Part shown: positions 1-29,115 of the stretch, piece by piece
Position numbering within the stretch: the stretch's first letter is position 1
How the letters are laid out: every line of letters begins with the position of its first letter
Assembly: GCF_040581405.1 (NCBI RefSeq)
Contig: NZ_CP137157.1
Coordinates: forward strand, 996,001-1,060,000
Direction of reading: 5' to 3'
From: Komagataeibacter sucrofermentans DSM 15973
Lineage (GTDB): Bacteria > Pseudomonadota > Alphaproteobacteria > Acetobacterales > Acetobacteraceae
DNA: 64,000 nt
Made by a program: the position numbers and the translations under genes
Notes under the pieces: generated by a model
What the model was told of the DNA's origin: nothing
Databases searched by the model: none
The model's input: the letters and a program-made list of their open reading frames with translations, nothing else

Positions 1-1885
<1,885 letters not shown>

Positions 1886-1922
1886 TCAATTCGGGTAATC
1901 CCGTAGTGATAAGGCGTATGCC

Positions 1923-2192
1923 TTATTCCGCTGCCAGCGGCAGGGCTTCCACGGAAACGTGCACGCGGCCTTCAGCGCGGCGCACGAACTTCACATGGCC
2001 ATCCACCAGGGAAAACAGGGTGTGGTCGCGGCCAACGCCAACGTTCACACCGGGCTTCATCTTCGTGCCGCGCTGGCGCACGATGATGTTGCCTGCGATG
2101 ACGCTTTCGCCACCAAACTTCTTGACGCCAAGACGACGCCCGGCGCTATCGCGCCCGTTACGGGACGAACCGCCTGCCTTTTTTTGTGCCAT
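1923..2192 (-). CDS. rpmA: 50S ribosomal protein L27
   Basis: Large-subunit ribosomal protein near the peptidyl-transferase centre, 89 residues, the normal length. Family features visible are [18 protein letters not shown] at the N-terminus, [20 protein letters not shown], and a [14 protein letters not shown] segment. The N-terminal arm lacks the extra cleaved peptide seen in some Firmicutes. It follows rplU by 66 bp on the same strand and is closed by the terminator at 1855-1884. Confidence 0.97.
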
Positions 2193-2258
2193 TGCCTGAA
2201 CTCCTTAAAACTGAAATCTCTGATCTGACCTGCCCGGGCGCATAAGCCCGGATAGGGA

Positions 2259-2573
2259 TCAGGCGGCGTTGATCGCGGAGATGCGCACCACGGTCACCGG
2301 CTGGCGGTGGCCATTCTTGCGGCGGCTGTTCTGCCGGCGGCGCTTCTTGAAGATGATGACCTTGGCCAGGCGGTCCTGCGCGATCACGGTTGCCGTGACG
2401 GTCGCACCCTTGACGGTCGGCGCACCAATGGTCGTGCCGCTTTCGCCGCCAACGGCGAGAACCTGATCGAACGTGATGGTGGCGCCGGCTTCGGCTTCCA
2501 GCTTCTCGACCTTCAGGACGGCATCTTTCGCAACGCGGTACTGCTTACCGCCGGTACGGATAACTGCAAACAT
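2259..2573 (-). CDS. rplU: 50S ribosomal protein L21
   Basis: Large-subunit ribosomal protein, 104 residues. It begins [14 protein letters not shown] and ends with the basic [20 protein letters not shown] segment and a short tail VTVVRISAI typical of L21. It is first gene of rplU-rpmA. A GC hairpin (2671-2690) lies in its presumed 5' UTR. Confidence 0.97.
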
Positions 2574-2670
2574 TCTCTATCTATCTTTCCGATCTCTTGG
2601 CGTGCGCGGCATTGCGGGAATGCAGGCGGCACGGCCCAGTCGCTTTTTTATATTGGCCACATTGCAGCGG

Positions 2671-2690
2671 CACCCCGTCCGCGCGGGGTG
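2671..2690 (-). promoter_or_regulatory. Hairpin in the rplU 5' leader
   Basis: CACCCCG-TCCGCG-CGGGGTG is a perfect 7-bp stem with a 6-nt loop. It would sit at or just after the predicted 5' end of the rplU transcript. A stabilising or autoregulatory element is possible; no function can be shown. Confidence 0.4.
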
Positions 2691-2698
2691 AATGCGGG

Positions 2699-2727
2699 CT
2701 TTTACTGGCTGAGGGGGGCGAGGTCAA
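2699..2727 (-). promoter_or_regulatory. Candidate sigma70-type promoter for rplU-rpmA
   Basis: On the minus strand TTGACC (2722-2727) and TAAAAG (2699-2704) are separated by exactly 17 bases, about 125 bp upstream of the rplU start. The -35 is near consensus and the -10 is weak. No other good promoter is seen in this gap. Confidence 0.4.
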
Positions 2728-2817
2728 TATTTTTATGGCGCCGTCGAATAGCTAAAAAAGACCCCTTGCGCGGGGGCGCGTGCCACCCTATAAGCCGCTG
2801 CATCACCGCGTGCAGTT

Positions 2818-2907
<90 letters not shown>

Positions 2908-2936
2908 CTGCATCGCGTGTGTTTTTCCCAAAGCAT

Positions 2937-3014
2937 AAAAGTTTTTGATAAAGTTTTTTCAGAAAGCTTTGGATGAATGCCGCCTATTTTAAAATAGGCA
3001 GCACCCATGAACTT
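2937..3014 (-). repeat. Nested-palindrome intergenic repeat, reverse orientation
   Basis: Compared with the best copy at 31614-31693, this one is inverted. Reading the plus strand: outer arm AAAAGTTTTTG, a small hairpin around AGTTTTTTCAGAAAGCTTT, then GCCGCCTATTTT-AAAATAGGCAGC and the closing arm ACCCATGAACTT. The inner stem differs from other copies by paired changes (CTA/TAG), so base pairing is preserved. It fills the gap between tRNA-Ser and the guaD 3' end. Confidence 0.7.
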
Positions 3015-3032
3015 CGCCTTGCTGGCAATCCC

Positions 3033-4376
3033 TTAAAGTGTAGCGTCCTCTTTGCAGTCATGCACCTTCGTGCCGCCTGCATAGGTTGCGCGGATGCTGC
3101 GGTCATCGCCCAGCATCATCAGCGTGAACAGCAGGTCGGCCGTGCTGTCGCACATCTGTGTCCGCAGGGCCTGCAGGGGCGTAGCCTTCGGGTCGAGAAT
3201 GCACAGATCGGCGTCCATGCCCGCAGCTACCGTGCCGATCCGTCCCTCAAGATGCAGCGCCTCGGCGCCGCCGCGTGTCGCCAGCCAGAAAGCCTGTACG
3301 GGGTGCAGGCGGTGGCCGTTCATCTGCGCGATCTTGTAGGCCTCGTTCATGGATTGCAGGTGCGACAGGCTGGTGCCCGCGCCAATATCGGTGCCCAGCC
3401 CCGTGCGCACCGGGCGTTTTGCATCCATCACATCAAACAGCCGGAAGGACCCGCTACCCAGGAACAGGTTCGACGTGGGGCAGTGCGCCAGCGCGCAGCC
3501 GCTTGCATGGCAGCGGCACAGATCCTGTTCATCCACATAAATGCCGTGGCCCATCACGCTGCGCGGGCGCACCAGGCCTGCGCGGTCATACACATCAAGA
3601 TAGGAGCGGCTGTCGGGGAAGAGTTCCTTCACCCAGGCAACTTCCGCCCGGTTCTCGGCCAGATGGGTCTGCATGAACAATGTATCGTCCTGCGCCAGCA
3701 GCGCGCCTGCCAGTTCAAGCTGTTCTGGCGTGCTGGTGGGGGCGAAGCGGGGGGTGACGGCATAGAACTGGCGGTTTTTGCCATGCCAGCGTTCAATCAG
3801 CGCGCGCGATTCATCATAGCCGCGCTGGGCGGTATCGCGCAGGAAGTCGGGCGCGTTGCGGTCCATCAGCACCTTGCCCGCGACCATGAGCGTGCCGAGG
3901 CGGGTGGATTCGGTAAAGAACGCATCGACCGATTGCGGGTGCACGGTGCAGTACACCGCTGCCGTGGTGGTGCCGCAGCGCAGCAGTTCGCGCAGGAAGG
4001 TGCGCGCGATGGTGGTGGCGTAGGCCCCATCGGCAAAGCGGCGCTCGGTGGGGAAGGTGTAGCGCTCCAGCCATTCCAGCAACTGCTCGCCATAGGCCGC
4101 GATCATGGGCAGTTGCGGGTAATGCACATGCGTGTCGATAAACCCGGCCGAGATCAGGCATCCCCGGTAATCGGCCACGTCGGTGCCGGGCGGCAGGTGG
4201 GCCAGCGTTTCGCTGTAGGGGCCGGCATGGGTGATGCGCCCGTTGGTGATCAGAACCAGCCCGTCAGGTTCCTCCACCAGCGCATCGGCAGGCGGCATGA
4301 GGAACGGGTTGCCCCGAAAGGTGACGATATGGCCGCGTAGGGCGGTGTGGACCGGGGGTGTGGGGGCAGGGGTCAT
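3033..4376 (-). CDS. guaD: Guanine deaminase
   Basis: Hydrolyses guanine to xanthine and ammonia in purine salvage/catabolism. The protein is a 447-residue amidohydrolase-fold enzyme. The metal-binding HVH is in GFIDTHVHYPQ (residues 83-85), followed by FPTERRF, THLAENRAEV, VMGHGIYVD and GLGTDIGAGTSLS, which match the guanine deaminase subfamily of chlorohydrolase-type enzymes. The start ATG at 4374-4376 is the first plausible one. No purine transporter or xanthine dehydrogenase is adjacent; the upstream neighbour is a FUSC transporter on the same strand, 35 bp away. Confidence 0.92.
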   Translation of the reverse strand: MTPAPTPPVHTALRGHIVTFRGNPFLMPPADALVEEPDGLVLITNGRITHAGPYSETLAHLPPGTDVADYRGCLISAGFIDTHVHYPQLPMIAAYGEQLLEWLERYTFPTERRFADGAYATTIARTFLRELLRCGTTTAAVYCTVHPQSVDAFFTESTRLGTLMVAGKVLMDRNAPDFLRDTAQRGYDESRALIERWHGKNRQFYAVTPRFAPTSTPEQLELAGALLAQDDTLFMQTHLAENRAEVAWVKELFPDSRSYLDVYDRAGLVRPRSVMGHGIYVDEQDLCRCHASGCALAHCPTSNLFLGSGSFRLFDVMDAKRPVRTGLGTDIGAGTSLSHLQSMNEAYKIAQMNGHRLHPVQAFWLATRGGAEALHLEGRIGTVAAGMDADLCILDPKATPLQALRTQMCDSTADLLFTLMMLGDDRSIRATYAGGTKVHDCKEDATL

Positions 4377-4411
4377 GTTGGCTCCATCTCCCTGCCGGTC
4401 CGGGCGTCGTG

Positions 4412-6616
4412 TCAGGACATCTCGCCGGTGCGGTAAGGCTGGGAGGCATCAAGGAAGGCGGCGTTGGCACCGAGTTCATAGGAAATGACCAGCAGATACG
4501 CAATGGCGCGGGTGATCTCGATGCGCGATGTGATGTTGCCTTCCGTCGCCTCCAGCCGGCGCAGGCTGCGCGTGGCCCCGCGTGCCACGCGGGCGGTGCG
4601 GCCAAAACGCCCGTACCGCCCGCTGAACTGCGACATGCGGTTGAGGAACAGCTCGATGGCCCGGTCCGCAGCCGGCGGCAGTTGCCCGCGTTCGAGCACC
4701 GTGCGCAGCCGGATGATGTTCAGCCCGATGGTCATGGCCGAGAGCGTGCCCTGCAGGTAGGCCTCGATGGTGGGGGTGGGCGTGGGGCCTGCATGGCGGA
4801 TCAGGCGGGAAAAACGGTCGGTATTGCGCCCGATCCATGACTGCGTGCGCGGCATGGGCTGGGCGGAGGCCAGGTGGCGCAGGTCATGCAGCGTGCGGTT
4901 GCGCATGCGCCAGCGTTCTTCATCATTATCGAAGGGCAGTACCGCGCGGAAGATCAGCACCGCAAAGCCGATGCTGCACAGCAGCGCGAAGGAGGCATTG
5001 AAGTATGCAATCTCGTTCAGGCGCGTCTGGTTGCCCGGCCCAACGAGGTTGGGCAGGAACAGGCAGTACGAGGCGGCGGCCCCCGCCGTGGCCGGGTTGC
5101 GCGCGGCAAGTCCGCCCGCAATCATGGGCAGGGCCAGGGCTGCGGCCAGCATTTCGAATTCCGCGGGTCGCGGCATGACCAGCATCACCAGAAAGCCGGA
5201 TACCAGAACCGCCCAGCACGCCCCGCGCAGGAAGTTCATGGTGCCCACCACCGGGTTCTCACGCGTGGCGAACAGGCCGCATGTCACCGCGACCATGGTG
5301 ATGAAGCCGATGCCGTTGGCCCAGGCCGTGACTTCCCATATCAGTGCCGAGGCGCCGATGGCCACGGCGGCGCGGATGCCGTTATAGGCGGCTTCCTTGA
5401 AGTCACGATGCGCTTCGATGCGGAAATGGAAGTGATCGCCACGGATCTCGTGCTGGCTGGCATCGAATTCGGCAATGGCCTGCTCAAGTTCGCCCAGCAG
5501 TTCATCAAGCGCGTTGTGCAGGATGCGGCAGTTCAGCAGGTCGTCCACCTCGGCGGTCGCGGTGGTGGATTCCATGCTGATTTCATGGCTCAGCGCATCA
5601 ATGATGCGCTGGCGGCACACGCCGCGCAGGTCCTGCAGGTCCTGCTGGATGTGCGGAATTTCGGAATCGTTTTCCAGCCGCGCGGGCACGCCAAGCAGGA
5701 AGGTACGGGTGAGCAGCGAGGTCTCGGTAAACTGCTCGTTGGTGGTTTCCAGCGCCTTGATGCGCGCCATCATGCCCAAACCGCGTGAAAGCAGAACCGA
5801 CACGGCGGCAAGGGCCGCGCGCGCATGGTCGCCTTCATGCCCGTGCGGGCCCATCTCGACTTCACTGAACTCGATCTGGTCATTGATGCTCAGGATGGTG
5901 CCAAACAGGGCGCGTGAGCGCACGAAAGCGGCATCATCGCCCGCGAGCAGGTTGGCCACGGCATCGGTGGAACTGCCCAGCGCCATCTGGATCTTCTGGC
6001 GCATGTTGCGCCGCGCGCTCGAGGCGAGGTTGTGCGCGAACAGCACCGCCACCAGCGTCTCGCACGTAATGCCCAGCACGATGTAGGACGTGCGCGACAT
6101 GGTGATCATGAAGATGTTGTCGGGGTCGCGCGTGGCGGCGAGCGCGATGATGGCGCAGGTATAGCCCGACAACACCAGCGCGTAGGAGCGGAAGTTGCGC
6201 ACCAGGGTTGCGCACATGCAGCACAGCCCGATCCACAGGCTGATGGCGGGAAAGAACAGCCATGGCGCCTGCGGAAACGAACAGACCAGAATGACCGCGC
6301 TGATCGCCCCGATGGCGGTGCCCACCAGTCGCCACCGCGCCTTGGAAAGGCTCTCCCCGCGCGAGCCCTGGGCTACGATCCATACGGTCATGGCGGCCCA
6401 TGGCGGGTCGTCAAGTTCCATCCACATCGCGATCGTCAGCGCCATCAGGGCTGCGACCGTGGTGCGCACGGCAAAGCCGAGCGCTTCAGGCGTGGGGGCG
6501 TAGAGCCATTTCAGGCCGCTCATGCGCGCATAGCCTGGCGCGCGGATGGGGGGGAAATGCTTTCCGCTGAAAAGACGGGTCAGGAAAGAGGGCAGAAGAT
6601 TGAGGTCTGCAGGCAC
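4412..6616 (-). CDS. FUSC-family inner-membrane transporter (aromatic acid exporter-like)
   Basis: A 734-residue membrane protein built as two halves. An N-terminal group of hydrophobic helices (about residues 45-190) is followed by a soluble stretch, then a second group (about 430-570), and ends in a soluble tail. This layout is typical of the FUSC family (AaeB, YccS and relatives), which includes efflux pumps for aromatic carboxylic acids. Sequence alone does not define the substrate. No AaeA-type membrane-fusion partner is adjacent. It sits 35 bp upstream of guaD on the same strand and may be co-transcribed with it. Confidence 0.8.
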   Translation of the reverse strand: MPADLNLLPSFLTRLFSGKHFPPIRAPGYARMSGLKWLYAPTPEALGFAVRTTVAALMALTIAMWMELDDPPWAAMTVWIVAQGSRGESLSKARWRLVGTAIGAISAVILVCSFPQAPWLFFPAISLWIGLCCMCATLVRNFRSYALVLSGYTCAIIALAATRDPDNIFMITMSRTSYIVLGITCETLVAVLFAHNLASSARRNMRQKIQMALGSSTDAVANLLAGDDAAFVRSRALFGTILSINDQIEFSEVEMGPHGHEGDHARAALAAVSVLLSRGLGMMARIKALETTNEQFTETSLLTRTFLLGVPARLENDSEIPHIQQDLQDLRGVCRQRIIDALSHEISMESTTATAEVDDLLNCRILHNALDELLGELEQAIAEFDASQHEIRGDHFHFRIEAHRDFKEAAYNGIRAAVAIGASALIWEVTAWANGIGFITMVAVTCGLFATRENPVVGTMNFLRGACWAVLVSGFLVMLVMPRPAEFEMLAAALALPMIAGGLAARNPATAGAAASYCLFLPNLVGPGNQTRLNEIAYFNASFALLCSIGFAVLIFRAVLPFDNDEERWRMRNRTLHDLRHLASAQPMPRTQSWIGRNTDRFSRLIRHAGPTPTPTIEAYLQGTLSAMTIGLNIIRLRTVLERGQLPPAADRAIELFLNRMSQFSGRYGRFGRTARVARGATRSLRRLEATEGNITSRIEITRAIAYLLVISYELGANAAFLDASQPYRTGEMS

Positions 6617-6721
6617 GATATACGGCTTCCGGCGGCAAGGGGCCCTCTACCCATAGCCCATCTTGGCATAACGTAATGGTGTTGCGAGTGCATATCAGGC
6701 ATCGGCTTTCCTCGTGACGGA

Positions 6722-7948
6722 TTATGTCACGGCAGGGGCAAGGCGGCCTGCGGCCAGGCGCAGGTCGTTGACAAAGCGGTCATATTCACGCGTCCGCGCG
6801 GCTTCATCGGGCAGGCGCAGCAGGTAGGAGGGGTGAACCGTCACGAGTCCGTCTGATCCATCCCCCATCGGAATGATGCGCGAACGCTCGCGGCTTATGG
6901 TAACGGCGCGCCCCAGCAGGGCCGATGCCGCCGTGACGCCAAGCATGACCACCACGGCCGGGCGGATGATGCGCCGCTCGGCGGCAAGCCACGGGGCGCA
7001 GGCGGCGATTTCCGCCGGGCCTGCCTTTTCATGGATGCGGCGCGTGGGGGTGCGGCGGAATTTGAAGTGCTTGACCGTATTGGTCACGTAAGTGTCATCA
7101 CGCCCGATTCCGGCTTCGAGCAGGGCGCGGTCGAACAGTTGGCCTGCCGGGCCAACAAAGGGGCGGCCGGCGCGGTCTTCAATATCGCCGGGCTGTTCGC
7201 CCACGAACATCATGCGGGCTGCCTCCCGGCCTTCGCCAAACACGGTCTGGGTGGCATGGGCGGCCATGGGGCAGATCAGGCATGTTTTTGCCGCCAGCGC
7301 TACCGCGCGCAACGACGTGATGCGGGCAATATCAAGGTCCGGCACCATGGGCAGGGCGGGTGGTGGCAGGCTGGTCGGGTCAAGCGGTTGCGGCGCCTGG
7401 CCGGGGGTTTCGCACAGCATTTCCTGGCCGGTCCAGCGCAGCGTGCGGTCGGGCATGTCAAGCTGCCAGGGGGCGAAGGAGCGTTGCAGGGTCAGGAACC
7501 GCGCATTGCTTTCTGGCACAAGGTCGAGCGTATCCACGCGACCCTGATACGGGGTGGTGCCATCGTGGCTGGGCAGAGCCCTGCGGATTTCATCGCGCAA
7601 CTGCCGGGTTTGCGTGATGACGTCTTCCTTTGTCCCTGCCATGCGGTCTGCTGCATCTTCGCCCGTCGGCACGCCCATGACATGGTCATAAACCAGCGTG
7701 TAGGCGAGGGCGAAGCGGTCGGGCAGGGCGGACTGCACCATTATGGCCGCAAGGTCCATGATCGCGCGCGGCACGGTGAAGCGCGCGGCCGCCGGGTCTG
7801 GCGCGGGCAGGGCGGCGGATTCGGTATCGATTGCGATCCGCCATGTAATGTCGGCGGGCGGAGTATGACGCCCGGCAAGGCTGCGCGTGGCTGATCGCCA
7901 GCCCGCAAAGTCGGCTTCATGGGCAAGGGTGACGGTTGCGTGGGGCAT
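6722..7948 (-). CDS. UdgX-type uracil-DNA-binding protein fused to a DUF4130-like N-terminal domain
   Basis: A 408-residue protein. The C-terminal half is a uracil-DNA-glycosylase-superfamily domain with GEQPGD (250-255), the RPFVGPAGQ loop, YVTNTVKHFKF and a closing VHPSYLLR motif. It carries TRRIH (302-306), which matches the KRRIH loop whose histidine forms a covalent bond with uracil-DNA sites in UdgX; the first Lys is Thr here. Cys223, Cys226 and Cys317 are candidate Fe-S ligands. The N-terminal half (VPRAIMDLA, RFALAYTLVYD, a FLTLQRSFAPW segment) resembles DUF4130, which is often fused to UdgX. The usual radical-SAM companion is not adjacent. Confidence 0.82.
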   Translation of the reverse strand: MPHATVTLAHEADFAGWRSATRSLAGRHTPPADITWRIAIDTESAALPAPDPAAARFTVPRAIMDLAAIMVQSALPDRFALAYTLVYDHVMGVPTGEDAADRMAGTKEDVITQTRQLRDEIRRALPSHDGTTPYQGRVDTLDLVPESNARFLTLQRSFAPWQLDMPDRTLRWTGQEMLCETPGQAPQPLDPTSLPPPALPMVPDLDIARITSLRAVALAAKTCLICPMAAHATQTVFGEGREAARMMFVGEQPGDIEDRAGRPFVGPAGQLFDRALLEAGIGRDDTYVTNTVKHFKFRRTPTRRIHEKAGPAEIAACAPWLAAERRIIRPAVVVMLGVTAASALLGRAVTISRERSRIIPMGDGSDGLVTVHPSYLLRLPDEAARTREYDRFVNDLRLAAGRLAPAVT

Positions 7949-25799: not shown

Positions 25800-27266
25800 T
25801 CAGCGCCATGCGCTGACGGCTTCAAGCCCCGTGCGCAACAGTTGCGCCGCCCGTTCGGGGCTGGCGGCCTCTACATACACGCGCAGTTCCGGCGCATTGC
25901 CTGACGGGCGGAGGTGAATGACCTCGCTGTCCGCAAAGGTCATGCGCAGGCCATCGGTTTCATCCACATGGGCCAGCGGGCCGCAGGCTCCGGTCAGACC
26001 CAGCGCGTCGGCCCCCTGTGCCGGGTTGCGGCGCAGGGCGGCAATATGGGCGGCACTCTGCTCGGTGGGCATGTCCTTCAGCCGGTCGCTCAGCGTAAAG
26101 CGGCGGGGCAGGGAGGCGACAAGCCCGGCAAGGTCGGTGCCCGTCTCGCGCGCGGCCACGAGCGCGCAGATCATGGGCAGCACGGAATCCCGCGTGGGCA
26201 GGGCCGCCAGCGTGCGCTCCCCGCGCGTGACCGGGCTTGCCAGCAGGAAGCCGCCATTGGCTTCATATCCGACCGAGGGTTCATGCCCATCGTGTGCTGC
26301 CTGCGTCATGGCCGCGACCACGTAGGGCGAGCCGATGCGCGTGCGCTGCACCGTATGGGCAAAGCCTGCCTGTTCCAGCGCCGTGTTGCTGCTGACCGGG
26401 GTGGCCACGGCACGGGCGGCCAGAAACCGCGCGGCCAGAATGCCCAGCACGTCGCCGCGCAGCCAGGCGCCGTGCCGGTCGGCCAGCAGCGGGCGGTCGG
26501 AATCACCATCGGTGGTCAGGATGCCGTCCAGCGTGCCATCGGCAGCCCACTCCCGCGCGAGGGTGGCATCCTCGGGGCGGACGGCTTCGGTATCGACGGG
26601 GATGAAGCTGTCCATGCGGCCGAGGGGCACGGCGGTGGCGCCAAGGGCCTCGACAATCTGCACCAGCACGTCGCGCCCCACGGCAGAATGCTGGTAAATG
26701 CCCAGTTTCAGCCTCGCCAGCGCATCGGCGCCAAAGAAATCACGGTAACGGGCCACGAAGCCGGGCACCACATCTGTCACGGGTGGCAGGTCGGGTGGGG
26801 CGGTCAGCGTGCCTTCGGCATCGAACCAGCCTTCGGGCAGGCTCACGTCAAGCGCGCGCATTGCTGCCTCGTCAGGCTTGAGGAACTCGCCGCGCGCGCG
26901 GTTGAACTTGATGCCGTTGCGATCGGCCGGGATATGGCTGCCCGTAACCATGAGCGAGGGCATGCCGTGCGCAAATGCGTGCAGGCACAAAGCCGGTGTG
27001 GGCACGTAACCGCAAAAGACCGGCACGCCATGCATGTAACGGATCGCGGCGGCACAGGCGCGCAGGATGCGCGGCGTACTCGGGCGCAGGTCCCCCGCCA
27101 CGGCCACGGCAGCACCCGGCGCGAACTCGCCGAGGCTGGCCAGATGCCGCAGATAGCCCACCGTGTAGGCGAAGCAGACCGAATCCTTCATCGCGCTGAC
27201 AAGGCCGCGCGCGCCGCTCGTTCCAAACGCGACACCGGAATGCTGCATCCACTGGGCTATCTTCAT
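25800..27266 (-). CDS. Phosphomannomutase/phosphoglucomutase family enzyme
   Basis: Alpha-D-phosphohexomutase of 488 residues, which interconverts hexose 6- and 1-phosphates for nucleotide-sugar supply. The phosphoserine loop is MVTGSHIPADRNGIKF, a subfamily variant of the usual TASHNP. The metal site is DGDSDRP, and the C-terminal phosphate-binding loop is LRPSGNAPELRVYVE. The start is ATG 27264-27266 (MKIAQWMQHSGVAFGTSGARG); the open frame continues upstream 173 codons into the decayed EAL region and is not coding there. Probable role in exopolysaccharide precursor synthesis; substrate not certain. Confidence 0.88.
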   Translation of the reverse strand: MKIAQWMQHSGVAFGTSGARGLVSAMKDSVCFAYTVGYLRHLASLGEFAPGAAVAVAGDLRPSTPRILRACAAAIRYMHGVPVFCGYVPTPALCLHAFAHGMPSLMVTGSHIPADRNGIKFNRARGEFLKPDEAAMRALDVSLPEGWFDAEGTLTAPPDLPPVTDVVPGFVARYRDFFGADALARLKLGIYQHSAVGRDVLVQIVEALGATAVPLGRMDSFIPVDTEAVRPEDATLAREWAADGTLDGILTTDGDSDRPLLADRHGAWLRGDVLGILAARFLAARAVATPVSSNTALEQAGFAHTVQRTRIGSPYVVAAMTQAAHDGHEPSVGYEANGGFLLASPVTRGERTLAALPTRDSVLPMICALVAARETGTDLAGLVASLPRRFTLSDRLKDMPTEQSAAHIAALRRNPAQGADALGLTGACGPLAHVDETDGLRMTFADSEVIHLRPSGNAPELRVYVEAASPERAAQLLRTGLEAVSAWR

Positions 27267-27305
27267 GGGTTCTTTCTCGCTTCTGGCCAATCCTGCGCGG
27301 ACTTT

Positions 27306-27334
27306 CGCGCCTGCCTGCCGACAACGCAGGCGCG
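27306..27334 (-). promoter_or_regulatory. GC hairpin in the upstream region of the phosphohexomutase gene
   Basis: CGCGCCTGC (27306-27314) and GCAGGCGCG (27326-27334) form a 9-bp perfect stem with an 11-nt loop, 40 bp upstream of the start codon. It could be a leader structure or a relic of the pseudogene. Confidence 0.35.
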
Positions 27335-27369
27335 TGGACAGGCGTTTATACAAACAATCGTGCCCGATC

Positions 27370-27870
27370 GAAGTCCCGCATCCGCCACGCGGGCCAGCGT
27401 GGGGCAGGGGCGTGGCGCAAATAAGGCGGGCCGCCTGCCTGGAGGCGGCAGGCTGGCCTAGGCAGGCAAGCATTGCGGTCAATGTCTCGCCCCCCGCGCG
27501 TTTTCTGAGCATTGTGGAAGGGGCGCTGGCAGGCTCCGGCCTTGCGCCCGCGTGGCTTGAGGTCGAGATTACCGAAAGCATTTTCGTGCAGAGCAGCGCG
27601 GCCAACCGCGACATCGTGCCTGATGATGCGGCACCGGCTATTCCTCGCCGGGCTACCTGTGCCCGTTTTGCTTCCAGAAAATCAGGATCGACCGCGTCTT
27701 TGTGCACGAACCGCCCGGGCGCGGGTTCGCGGGCATCCATCCGCAGTATCATCAGCCTGGCGCAGGGCATGAACATTCCCATCACGGTGGACGCACCTCA
27801 ACGCGTTTGGCTGCAATCAGGTGCAGGGCGGCCTGCCCGGTCGCCCACAGCCATCGGAGAGGGGCCGCCA
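27370..27870 (+). pseudogene. Decayed EAL-domain c-di-GMP phosphodiesterase
   Basis: Fragments in different frames align in order with an EAL domain. First, IRRAACLEAAGWPRQASIAVNVSP, then FLSIVEGALAGSGLAPAWLEVEITES in the same frame. After a deletion of about 15 residues and a one-base loss in the DDF codon, GTGYSSPGYL and FQKIRIDRVFVH appear in a second frame. IRSIISLAQGMNIPITVDA follows in the first frame, and FGCNQVQGGLPGRPQP in another. The EAL motif itself is not intact. No start or full-length frame remains, so it is non-functional. It lies between pmm and metA. Confidence 0.8.
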
Positions 27871-28014
27871 GAGCATCCTGACCCATGCCTGAACGCTGTT
27901 GCTGCTGGCCATATCTGAAAATGCACGGCTGTCGCTGATGGAAACGTGAGCCACGCCGCGTGTCGTGCCGGTGCGTATGGTCTTGCAATCGTAACAGAAA
28001 ACACGTAAAAGCGC

Positions 28015-28098
28015 GGCCTGCATCAGGAGTTGGGGCGACGCCCAACGCCAACCTGCCGTGCCGGGCAAGGTGGCGCTCCCGCAAGGGGGGATGTGGCC
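28015..28098 (+). ncRNA. Structured metA leader RNA, candidate SAM-I-like aptamer
   Basis: Hand folding gives a four-way junction. P1: GGCC-U-GCAUC (28015-28024) with GAUGU-GGCC (28090-28098). P2: GUUGGG/CCCAAC. P3: GCCAACCUGCC with GGGCAAGGUGGC, containing the unpaired A positions. P4: CUCCC-GCAA-GGGGG with a GNRA tetraloop. J1/2 with P1 reads AUCAGGAG, and P3 reads CAACC...AAGGUGGC; the SAM-I core has AUCAAGAG and GCAACC...AAGGUGC. P2 is short and lacks the kink-turn and pseudoknot of SAM-I. It lies 70 bp upstream of metA. Folding is seen in sequence; SAM binding is inference. Confidence 0.45.
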
Positions 28099-28131
28099 AG
28101 GCCGGCAACAAAACGGATCATGCCACGTAGC

Positions 28132-28163
28132 GCGTCATGCCCCTCGTAATTGAGGATGGACGC
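28132..28163 (+). promoter_or_regulatory. Predicted ribosome-binding-site-sequestering hairpin before metA
   Basis: GCGTC (28132-28136) pairs with GACGC (28159-28163), and CCTC (28142-28145) with GAGG (28152-28155). GAGG is the best Shine-Dalgarno sequence for metA. The hairpin sits between the leader RNA and the start codon, as an expression platform for translational control would. Confidence 0.45.
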
Positions 28164-28167
28164 GGCA

Positions 28168-29115
28168 ATGCCCATAAGAATACCCGATGATCTCCCCGCC
28201 CGCGGCACGCTTGAAGCCGAAGGCGTGATGGTGATGGGCGAGACCGACGCCATACGGCAGGATATCCGCCCGCTGCGCATCGGGCTGCTCAACCTCATGC
28301 CCAACAAGATCCGCACCGAGACCCAGATCGCCCGCCTTATCGGCGCAACGCCGCTGCAGGTCGAACTCACGCTGGTGCGCATGAGCGGGCATGTGCCGCG
28401 CAATGCTTCAGCCAGTCACATGACCTCGTTTTACCGGGCGTGGGAGGATGTGCGCAACGCGCGGTTCGATGGCTTCATCATCACCGGCGCCCCCGTCGAG
28501 CGCCTGCCCTTTGCCGAGGTGACCTACTGGGATGAACTGCGCCGCGTGTTCGACTGGACCCTGACCAACGTGCACCGATGTTTCAACATCTGCTGGGCAG
28601 CCCAGGCCGCGGTGCACCACTTTCATGGCATGCCCAAGCACGCGCTCGCCCGCAAGGCGTTCGGGGTGTATGACCACCGCATCCTCGCCCCGACCTCGCC
28701 CTACCTGCTCGGCTTTGCCGATGACCTGTCCATTCCCGTCTCGCGCTGGACGGAGGTGCGGCGCGCCGACCTGCCACGCAACACCGACATGACCGTTCTG
28801 GCCGAAAGCCCCGAGACCGGCCTGTGCCTGCTTGATGATCCGCGGCACCATGCGCTGCACATGTTCAACCACCTTGAATATGATTCCACCTCGCTGGCGG
28901 ATGAATATTTCCGCGATCGCGAGAGGGGGCTCGATATTGCGGTGCCGCACAACTACTTCCCCCATGATGACCCGGCCCTGCGCCCCATCAATCGCTGGCG
29001 CGCGCATGCGCACCTGCTGGCAGGCAACTGGATCAACCAGATATACCAGACCACCCCCTTCAATATTGCGCGGATCGGGCATGAAAGCCGCGGTCCCGTC
29101 CTGGCCTGCGCCTGA
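28168..29115 (+). CDS. metA: Homoserine O-acyltransferase (predicted acetyl-CoA-specific)
   Basis: Activates homoserine for methionine synthesis. 315 residues from [18 protein letters not shown], the standard MetA start. The nucleophile is Cys142 (FNICWAAQA). Residue 111 is Glu (GAPVE), as in Bacillus cereus MetA, which uses acetyl-CoA; E. coli has Gly111 and uses succinyl-CoA. So this enzyme is predicted to be a homoserine O-acetyltransferase. HNYFPHDDP near the C-terminus is family-typical. ATG 28168 is chosen over TTG 28150 and ATG 28156, which add residues not seen in the family. Confidence 0.93.

Follow-up and report, generated by a model that had tools for sequence, protein, structure and literature searches.

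The 2010 description of SAM-I/IV riboswitches, in part of PMC2864571, treats them as variants within the SAM-I/SAM-IV superfamily that are without the P2 internal loop, and PDB 4L81 is given as the crystal structure of the class (PMC5393176). Compared with SAM-IV, the class is stated in one section of PMC6890682 to have P4 and an undivided P2, and to be without PK-1. A review places the switching sequence of riboswitches most commonly in the first helix, in the section that treats it (PMC10907184). Part of a 2007 survey gives as cases of switching outside P1 the loop pseudoknot of AdoCbl riboswitches, the pseudoknot of SAM-II and the tail of preQ1 riboswitches, and describes some SAM-I riboswitches in which the ribosome site is built into P1 (PMC2258182). 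In the portion that concerns riboswitches, a 2014 survey of regulons in Proteobacteria names three motifs as being used, SAH, SAM-SAH and SAM_alpha, the last of them found only in Rhizobiales and Rhodobacterales (PMC4239095).

Our search of the open-access literature found no P2-based switch for SAM-I/IV. The abstract of Trausch 2014 is said to state that SAM stabilises a pseudoknot belonging to the regulatory switch. The RNA considered here, the leader of metA, belongs to a known aptamer class, and we found no description of its expression platform in the open-access literature searched. Comparison with its relatives suggests that release or hiding of the ribosome site may be brought about by P2, an inner helix of the aptamer.

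The window, by which we mean the whole 64-kb stretch of DNA that was analysed, contains two Rfam 15 matches above gathering score, a tRNA and a match to SAM-I/IV (RF01725). The latter lies at 28015-28122 on the + strand and scores 53.7 bits against a gathering score of 41.1 (E 5.4e-6, 64 kb searched on both strands), covering positions 1-99 of the 99 in the model. A permissive scan of 27900-28300 gave four matches, of which RF01725 alone exceeded the gathering score of its own family; for members of a clan the scan retains the best match only, and a weaker match to SAM-I (RF00162) would stay hidden. SAM-II (RF00521) gave no match above gathering score in the 64-kb window, and none up to E 10 in 27900-28300. 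Within the window's genome the match upstream of metA is the sole RF01725 match at E ≤0.001. It is near certain that the metA leader RNA is a member of the known, curated class SAM-I/IV. The preliminary description had recognised a SAM-I-type core in a four-way junction, and had proposed the covariance search that returned this match. It had also suggested an unrelated new leader RNA, which is ruled out by the full-length match to RF01725, and with it the claim of novelty falls. SAM-II identity is ruled out by the lack of any RF00521 match in the Rfam scans of the window. The elements of the aptamer are as follows.

28015-28122, + strand: SAM-I/IV riboswitch aptamer (RF01725), full-length model match, 53.7 bits
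28020-28094, + strand: P1, the family-conserved part of 5 bp, GCAUC 28020-28024 with GAUGU 28090-28094; 99.7% of cells paired
28029-28046, + strand: P2, 28029-28034 with 28041-28046 around the loop 28035-28040; the switching strand is also proposed to lie here, in the 5′ strand together with the loop
28047-28074, + strand: P3 with the SAM-pocket motifs CAACC...AAGGUGG, in invariant columns of the covariation alignment
28076-28089, + strand: P4, 28076-28080 with 28085-28089, GCAA loop
28096-28106, + strand: P5, GCC 28096-28098 with GGC 28104-28106, from fold and alignment
28061-28116, + strand: PK-2 remnant, CCG 28061-28063 (P3 loop) with CGG 28114-28116, adjoining a G.A mismatch

Helices P1 to P4, and the second hairpin discussed below, are all in the sequence as had been described. 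The P1-P4 four-way junction carries the SAM-I core motifs, and the core columns are invariant among the aligned leaders. P2 is a 6-bp stem with a 6-nt loop and no internal loop, and a P5 hairpin is present 3′ of P1, both of which are expected of SAM-I/IV. The kink-turn that would be expected in the P2 of SAM-I (RF00162) is missing from this simple short hairpin, as had been noticed. Against SAM-IV (RF00634), P4 is there and covaries, and P2 is undivided.

Covariation was analysed in a MAFFT alignment of 115 leaders, representing the 90% clusters of 184. These 184 were found by a leader pattern search of 205 loci; the 21 loci that it missed are 8 metA loci without SAM-I/IV and 13 that are Rfam-positive (L114, L115, L133, L135, L149, L164, L196, L200, L203, L204, L205, L210 and L215). 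Helices P1-P5 pair in 95.5% of cells in the 115 leaders, against 89.1% in shuffles and no more than 51.0% in slid controls, and both sides change in 16 of 28 pairs compared with 10.9 in shuffles (equalled in 0 of 500). All five counted pairs of P2 have changes on both sides, as do all five of P4. PK-2 pairs in 77.8% of cells, with slid controls at 57.6% or below; at columns 47-171 CG is found in 46 of the 115 leaders, UA in 30, UG in 5 and AU in 3, and 22 are unpaired. Conservation and covariation had been set beforehand as the point on which the four-helix reading could fail; what we find is that P2, P4 and PK-2 covary.

PK-2 thus appears to covary in the family, and seems to have shrunk to about three pairs in the window. 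The P3 loop of the window (28058-28063) has G in place of the U found in other members of the genus (L005, L111, L116, L168, L170 and L175), a change shared with L027 and L167. This weakens PK-2, so that CCG/CGG is left in the window. The earlier statement that the RNA has no pseudoknot fits P2; it does not fit the family, where the P3 loop pairs with the strand 3′ of P5 in PK-2. Similarly, a bulged 9-bp P1 had been described, and it can be drawn in the window by adding four outer pairs, GGCC 28015-28018 with GGCC 28095-28098, across a bulged U. All four of these are present in only 25 of 184 leaders, and at least three in 77 of 184, and they overlap the P5 strand. We therefore take the P1 of the family to be 5 bp, and reject the 9-bp helix as a conserved feature.

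The gene and its ribosome site lie immediately downstream.

28132-28163, + strand: sequestor hairpin, 28132-28136 with 28159-28163 and CCUC 28142-28145 with GAGG 28152-28155 (likely ribosome site)
28152-28155, + strand: likely Shine-Dalgarno sequence GAGG, 12 nt before the metA ATG
28168-29115, + strand: metA (homoserine O-acyltransferase, PF04204), ATG at 28168; from Pfam, NCBIfam and relatives

The metA product matches PF04204 with E 8.5e-123. Among NCBIfam models the acetyl type is best at 439.9 bits, below its own cut-off of 460.5, followed by the succinyl type at 383.2 bits (cut-off 495). The start is taken as ATG 28168 on the evidence of the 72 riboswitch-bearing relatives: each has a start codon at the same place (69 ATG, 2 GTG and 1 TTG), and CCN-ATN comes next, as it does in the window. 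The second hairpin had been described as pairing the likely metA ribosome site, and CCUC 28142-28145 does pair with GAGG 28152-28155. When 69 of the 72 metA leaders were folded from just after P5 (L037, L041 and L058 being omitted for long spacing), the best Shine-Dalgarno match had a mean unpaired probability of 0.26. Upstream of the riboswitch, at 27265-27918, is an open reading frame whose translation, judged by eye, resembles part of an EAL-type protein and is possibly decayed.

The strand that would form the 5′ side of the sequestor is complementary to the 5′ strand and loop of P2, giving the following helix.

28032-28143, + strand: proposed antisequestor (ON helix), GGGGC 28032-28036 with GCCCC 28139-28143 and GACGC 28037-28041 with GCGUC 28132-28136, with a bulge at 28137-28138

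The ON helix uses the P2 stem at 28032-28034 and 28041, so that P2 and the ON helix are mutually exclusive. It also shares 28132-28136 and 28142-28143 with the sequestor, and these two helices are therefore mutually exclusive as well.

We have assessed the complementarity by combining each P2 with the platforms of all the other loci in turn, a platform being taken as 40 nt from 8 nt past P5. This mispair test sets locus-specific pairing apart from common composition. It was applied to a list of 60 clusters built from 183 leaders; some species are present twice, and the clustering removes the duplicates. True P2:platform duplexes have a mean energy of -17.42 kcal/mol compared with -13.71 kcal/mol when mispaired (z -10.5, 0 of 5000 permutations). 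With 39 broader clusters z is -9.2, and metA clusters alone (n=17) and non-metA clusters alone (n=43) give z -4.7 and -9.2, respectively. Where platforms were matched in GC content within 6%, the mean advantage is -3.57 kcal/mol (sem 0.44), favourable in 45 of the 52 clusters with enough matches. Contiguous helices of at least 8 bp occur in 30 of 60 clusters, where 11.3 are expected and the maximum in 20000 permutations was 22, and helices of at least 9 unbroken pairs in 24 of 60. The pairing is kept with different letters in L143 (GGGCUGACGC/GCGUCAGCCC), L138 (GGGCCGACGC/GCGUCGGCCC) and L163 (GGUGGACGCC/GGCGUCCAUC), and also in L218 (GGUCGGCAC/GUGCCGAUC), which was obtained after the hypothesis had been formed. 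In the alignment of 115 leaders 76.2% of P2:platform cells pair, against 70.8% in shuffles and at most 56.9% in slid versions, and there are 74 cells with changes on both sides compared with 39.2 in shuffles (0 of 500). A separate alignment includes 68 of 72 distinct leaders, the four of at least 200 nt being left out. The mispair test on clusters is stronger evidence than counts of pairs, since relatedness among sequences can be enough to exceed shuffles where there is no structure.

Other segments of the aptamer were set against the same platforms as controls. In the 60 clusters the 3′ half of P2 gives z -0.4 (1664 of 5000), P4 gives z -2.4 (41 of 5000) and P3 gives z -3.7 (0 of 5000), the last being -4.3 in 73 non-metA leaders. 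Since P3 and P4 also fall below most permutations, a minor share of the signal belongs to GC-rich segments of one genome in general. What P2 shows goes far beyond this shared composition. Against dinucleotide-shuffled platforms it is weaker, with a mean z of -1.3 and p ≤0.05 in 20 of 60 clusters; for the window z is -2.35 and p 0.015. Changes on both sides are found in nine of nine P2:platform pairs, which is not above the shuffles, where the mean is 7.9 and 113 of 500 reach nine. With a home-made tree-based null the best P2:platform pair has E 5.7 and is ranked 9 among all column pairs, and the other eight have E 35 to 7260. This null is too conservative for single pairs: the P2 stem's own pairs have E 2.75 to 98, and E <1 is reached only by two P4 pairs and one pair of shifted P2 columns.

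The strength of the pairing varies with lineage and gene context. Helices of at least 8 bp are found in 5 of 17 metA clusters, 3 of 12 LTA, 3 of 5 small97 and 19 of 26 other clusters, and lineages weak in P2:platform pairing include L033, L037, L050, L089, L131, L139, L141 and L147. In the window the ON helix consists of two 5-bp blocks around a 2-nt bulge, with a longest unbroken run of 6. Locus-specific P2:platform complementarity that would exclude P2 was found over the clusters, more weakly by dinucleotide shuffles, and was not significant pair by pair. As complementarity in the family the putative exchange is well supported; in the window, where the helix is bulged, the putative exchange is moderately supported.

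We propose that this is a SAM-I/IV riboswitch that probably represses translation of metA at high SAM, switching by P2 strand exchange. Binding of SAM would stabilise P1 to P5, with P2 retained in the aptamer. With P2 held, the strand 28132-28143 would be free to pair with the ribosome-site strand, and GAGG would be hidden (OFF). At low SAM, 28032-28041 (the 5′ strand of P2 and its loop) would pair with 28132-28143, opening P2 and freeing the ribosome site (ON). This would put the switching strand in an inner helix, P2, and not in P1 or PK-2. A further helix may assist by opening P1 and P5.

28091-28128, + strand: candidate extra ON-state helix, AUGUGGC 28091-28097 with GCCACGU 28122-28128, competing with P1 and P5

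Calculated folding energies for the window, which include neither ligand nor pseudoknot energy, are -71.7 kcal/mol with the ON helix forced, -65.3 kcal/mol with the aptamer forced and -74.0 kcal/mol when free. The ON-forced fold lies below the aptamer-forced fold, and thus a SAM-free transcript need not hold the aptamer. The unconstrained minimum-energy fold at -74.0 kcal/mol keeps P2 and hides GAGG without ligand. Since the free fold hides GAGG, and ligand and pseudoknot are not counted, the energies neither prove nor exclude switching. In the 69 folded metA leaders, removing the platform strand left the ribosome site with a mean unpaired probability of 0.51, compared with 0.26 before; the value rose in 51 leaders and fell in 8. 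Removal of random upstream blocks of equal size gave 0.46, and the true strand was higher in 42 of 69 leaders (p 0.14). In these 69 leaders we find no release of the ribosome site significantly beyond the effect of any other strand. The random blocks being nearly equal to the true strand, release follows loss of almost any upstream partner. It is not peculiar to the platform strand, and so the case for P2 rests on the locus-specific complementarity.

The candidate extra helix could instead be the center of a conventional switch, in which SAM stabilises P1 and PK-2, the GUGGC strand of P1/P5 switches through GCCAC 28122-28126, and the P2 complementarity is secondary. We think this unlikely, while giving it some weight. 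GUGGC/GCCAC pairing is kept in 86.4% of cells in the 115 leaders, and its core has one switching pair (columns 132-181: UA in 66, CG in 18 and UG in 6 of 115); one slid version of it, however, also attains 77.9%. The helix 28091-28097 with 28122-28128 forms in both the free and the ON-forced folds of the window. A first helix is the most common site of a switching sequence, as stated in the relevant part of PMC10907184. In one later locus, L222, the strand 3′ of P5 by eye reads AAGGAGAUG shortly ahead of an AUG, which would allow PK-2 itself to cover the ribosome site in that locus. Against this, complementarity of the P1/P5 segment to the platforms is not locus-specific (z -0.8 to -2.0, and -1.2 beside the other controls), in a test that has little power for this segment as its letters are near-invariant. 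Moreover, by eye GCCAC lacks complementarity to the strand with the window's ribosome site, and alone it explains neither hiding nor freeing of GAGG.

Two further explanations are improbable. In the SAM-bound RNA the P2 loop might form a kissing contact, and not an alternative helix, with the platform. Loop contacts of P2 are known in SAM-I, and letters of the P2 loop join in many P2:platform duplexes. Yet the 5′ strand of the P2 stem (all of GGGCCGACGC) is itself engaged in the pairing in L138 and L094, so that the helices exclude each other there, and the 6-nt P2 loop of the window cannot supply ten pairs; we therefore regard a kissing contact as very doubtful. Slightly less probable still is a SAM-I/IV-like aptamer whose ligand has been lost or changed in this lineage with the weakening of PK-2, comparable to the spermidine variants known from SAM-I. 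The PK-2 of the window is indeed reduced to CCG/CGG and a G.A mismatch, and SAM-I variants with altered ligand exist, as reported in part of PMC10853860. However, the aptamer has intact pocket motifs and precedes metA, whereas the spermidine variants are described in the same source as altered in pocket positions and associated with polyamine genes (PMC10853860). The near relative L167 shares the P3-loop change, and its genome retains metA.

To see how far P2 strand exchange extends, we ranked the true duplex among 60 other platforms and 60 other P2s in 13 loci obtained after the hypothesis had been formed; four more (L224 and L230-L232) were excluded, as the set contained these places before. 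Six loci fall in the top 12 of 60 on both sides (platforms/P2s: L217 2/0, L218 3/0, L219 7/9, L228 6/7, L227 10/7 and L229 12/1). L228 and L229 are not independent, since a genome of their order had been used before; L217 and L227 lie outside the class Alphaproteobacteria. Two loci rank well on one side only (L221 7/19 and L223 7/21), and five fit poorly (L225 31/20, L220 30/31, L226 13/51, L216 42/49 and L222 60/58). L217 has a terminator-like hairpin (CCCACCAUUUGGUGGG and a U run), and the strand with which its P2 pairs runs from just ahead of this hairpin into it. On balance these comparisons favour the view that in Alphaproteobacteria, and in at least L217 and L227 outside them, the 5′ strand and loop of the SAM-I/IV P2 act as the antisequestor of a platform hairpin, or antiterminator in the case of L217. 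If this is true, switching through P2 would give a reason why the class has a plain P2 that lacks both the kink-turn and the P2 pseudoknot. The same aptamer class would also be combined with two or more kinds of platform, one working by P2 exchange and another, suggested by L222, in which PK-2 covers the ribosome site. The proposal offers a concrete model, ready for mutation, of gene control by the SAM-I/IV riboswitches of Alphaproteobacteria.

Among named genomes 452 metA loci were found, of which the best 80 were compared. SAM-I/IV lies just upstream of metA in 72 of these 80, and SAM-II in two (L100 and L102). Neither riboswitch exceeds its gathering score in the remaining six of the best 80 (L036, L038, L040, L043, L072 and L077), and those six have no Rfam riboswitch whatever above gathering score. 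SAM-II had been named as the usual alphaproteobacterial riboswitch near metA. For this metA clade that does not hold; in the best 80 of 452 loci the usual sensor is SAM-I/IV. Within Komagataeibacter the riboswitch is present in 10 of 19 genomes and metA in exactly the same 10, both being absent in the other nine. One genome of the genus (G340) has a second weak RF01725 match (C16:120578-120671) of 26.4 bits, below the cut-off.

At E ≤0.001, RF01725 is found in 85 of 397 genomes of the family Acetobacteraceae (81 above the cut-off), in 35 of 385 of the class Alphaproteobacteria, and in 16 of 299 of the phylum, five of these outside the class; strict filters were used for these three counts, and weak matches are lost from them. 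Two further orders have matches at this threshold in 3 of 15 and 1 of 24 genomes. In 30 of 80 Acetobacteraceae loci SAM-I/IV goes not with metA but with a PLP enzyme of the threonine-aldolase kind (including L012, L014 and L016-L021; that of L017 is PF01212, Beta_elim_lyase). A conserved open reading frame of about 97 amino acids accompanies SAM-I/IV in 19 of the 80 family loci (L121:1648-1938 and 18 others), and that of L121 has no Pfam or NCBIfam match. In L120 the next reading frame after it resembles, by eye, a class V aminotransferase.

The metA leader can finally be compared with its nearest described counterparts. It shares with SAM-I/IV (RF01725, PDB 4L81) the P1-P4 junction, a P2 without internal loop, P5 and, in its relatives, PK-2; it differs in that PK-2 is weak in the window and that the likely ribosome site lies in a separate hairpin, whose 5′ side can pair with P2, and not in the PK-2 strand. 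With SAM-I, or the S-box (RF00162), it has in common P4 and the pocket motifs AUCARGAG, CAACC and AAGGUG, where the SAM-I wording is that of the preliminary description. Unlike SAM-I, its P2 has no kink-turn, and PK-2 and P5 are present in the SAM-I/IV family. P5 and PK-2 on the 3′ side resemble SAM-IV (RF00634) as set out in part of PMC6890682, whereas P4 is present in the window RNA and P2 is not split into P2a and P2b. SAM-II (RF00521, SAM_alpha) similarly precedes metA in other Alphaproteobacteria (L100 and L102), but has no match in the window. Mutually exclusive helices, a sequestor with an antisequestor and OFF logic are shared with the strand-exchange riboswitches, as these are described in one section of PMC10907184. 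In contrast to their usual exchange in the first helix, the switching strand proposed for the window would lie inside P2, in its 5′ strand and loop.
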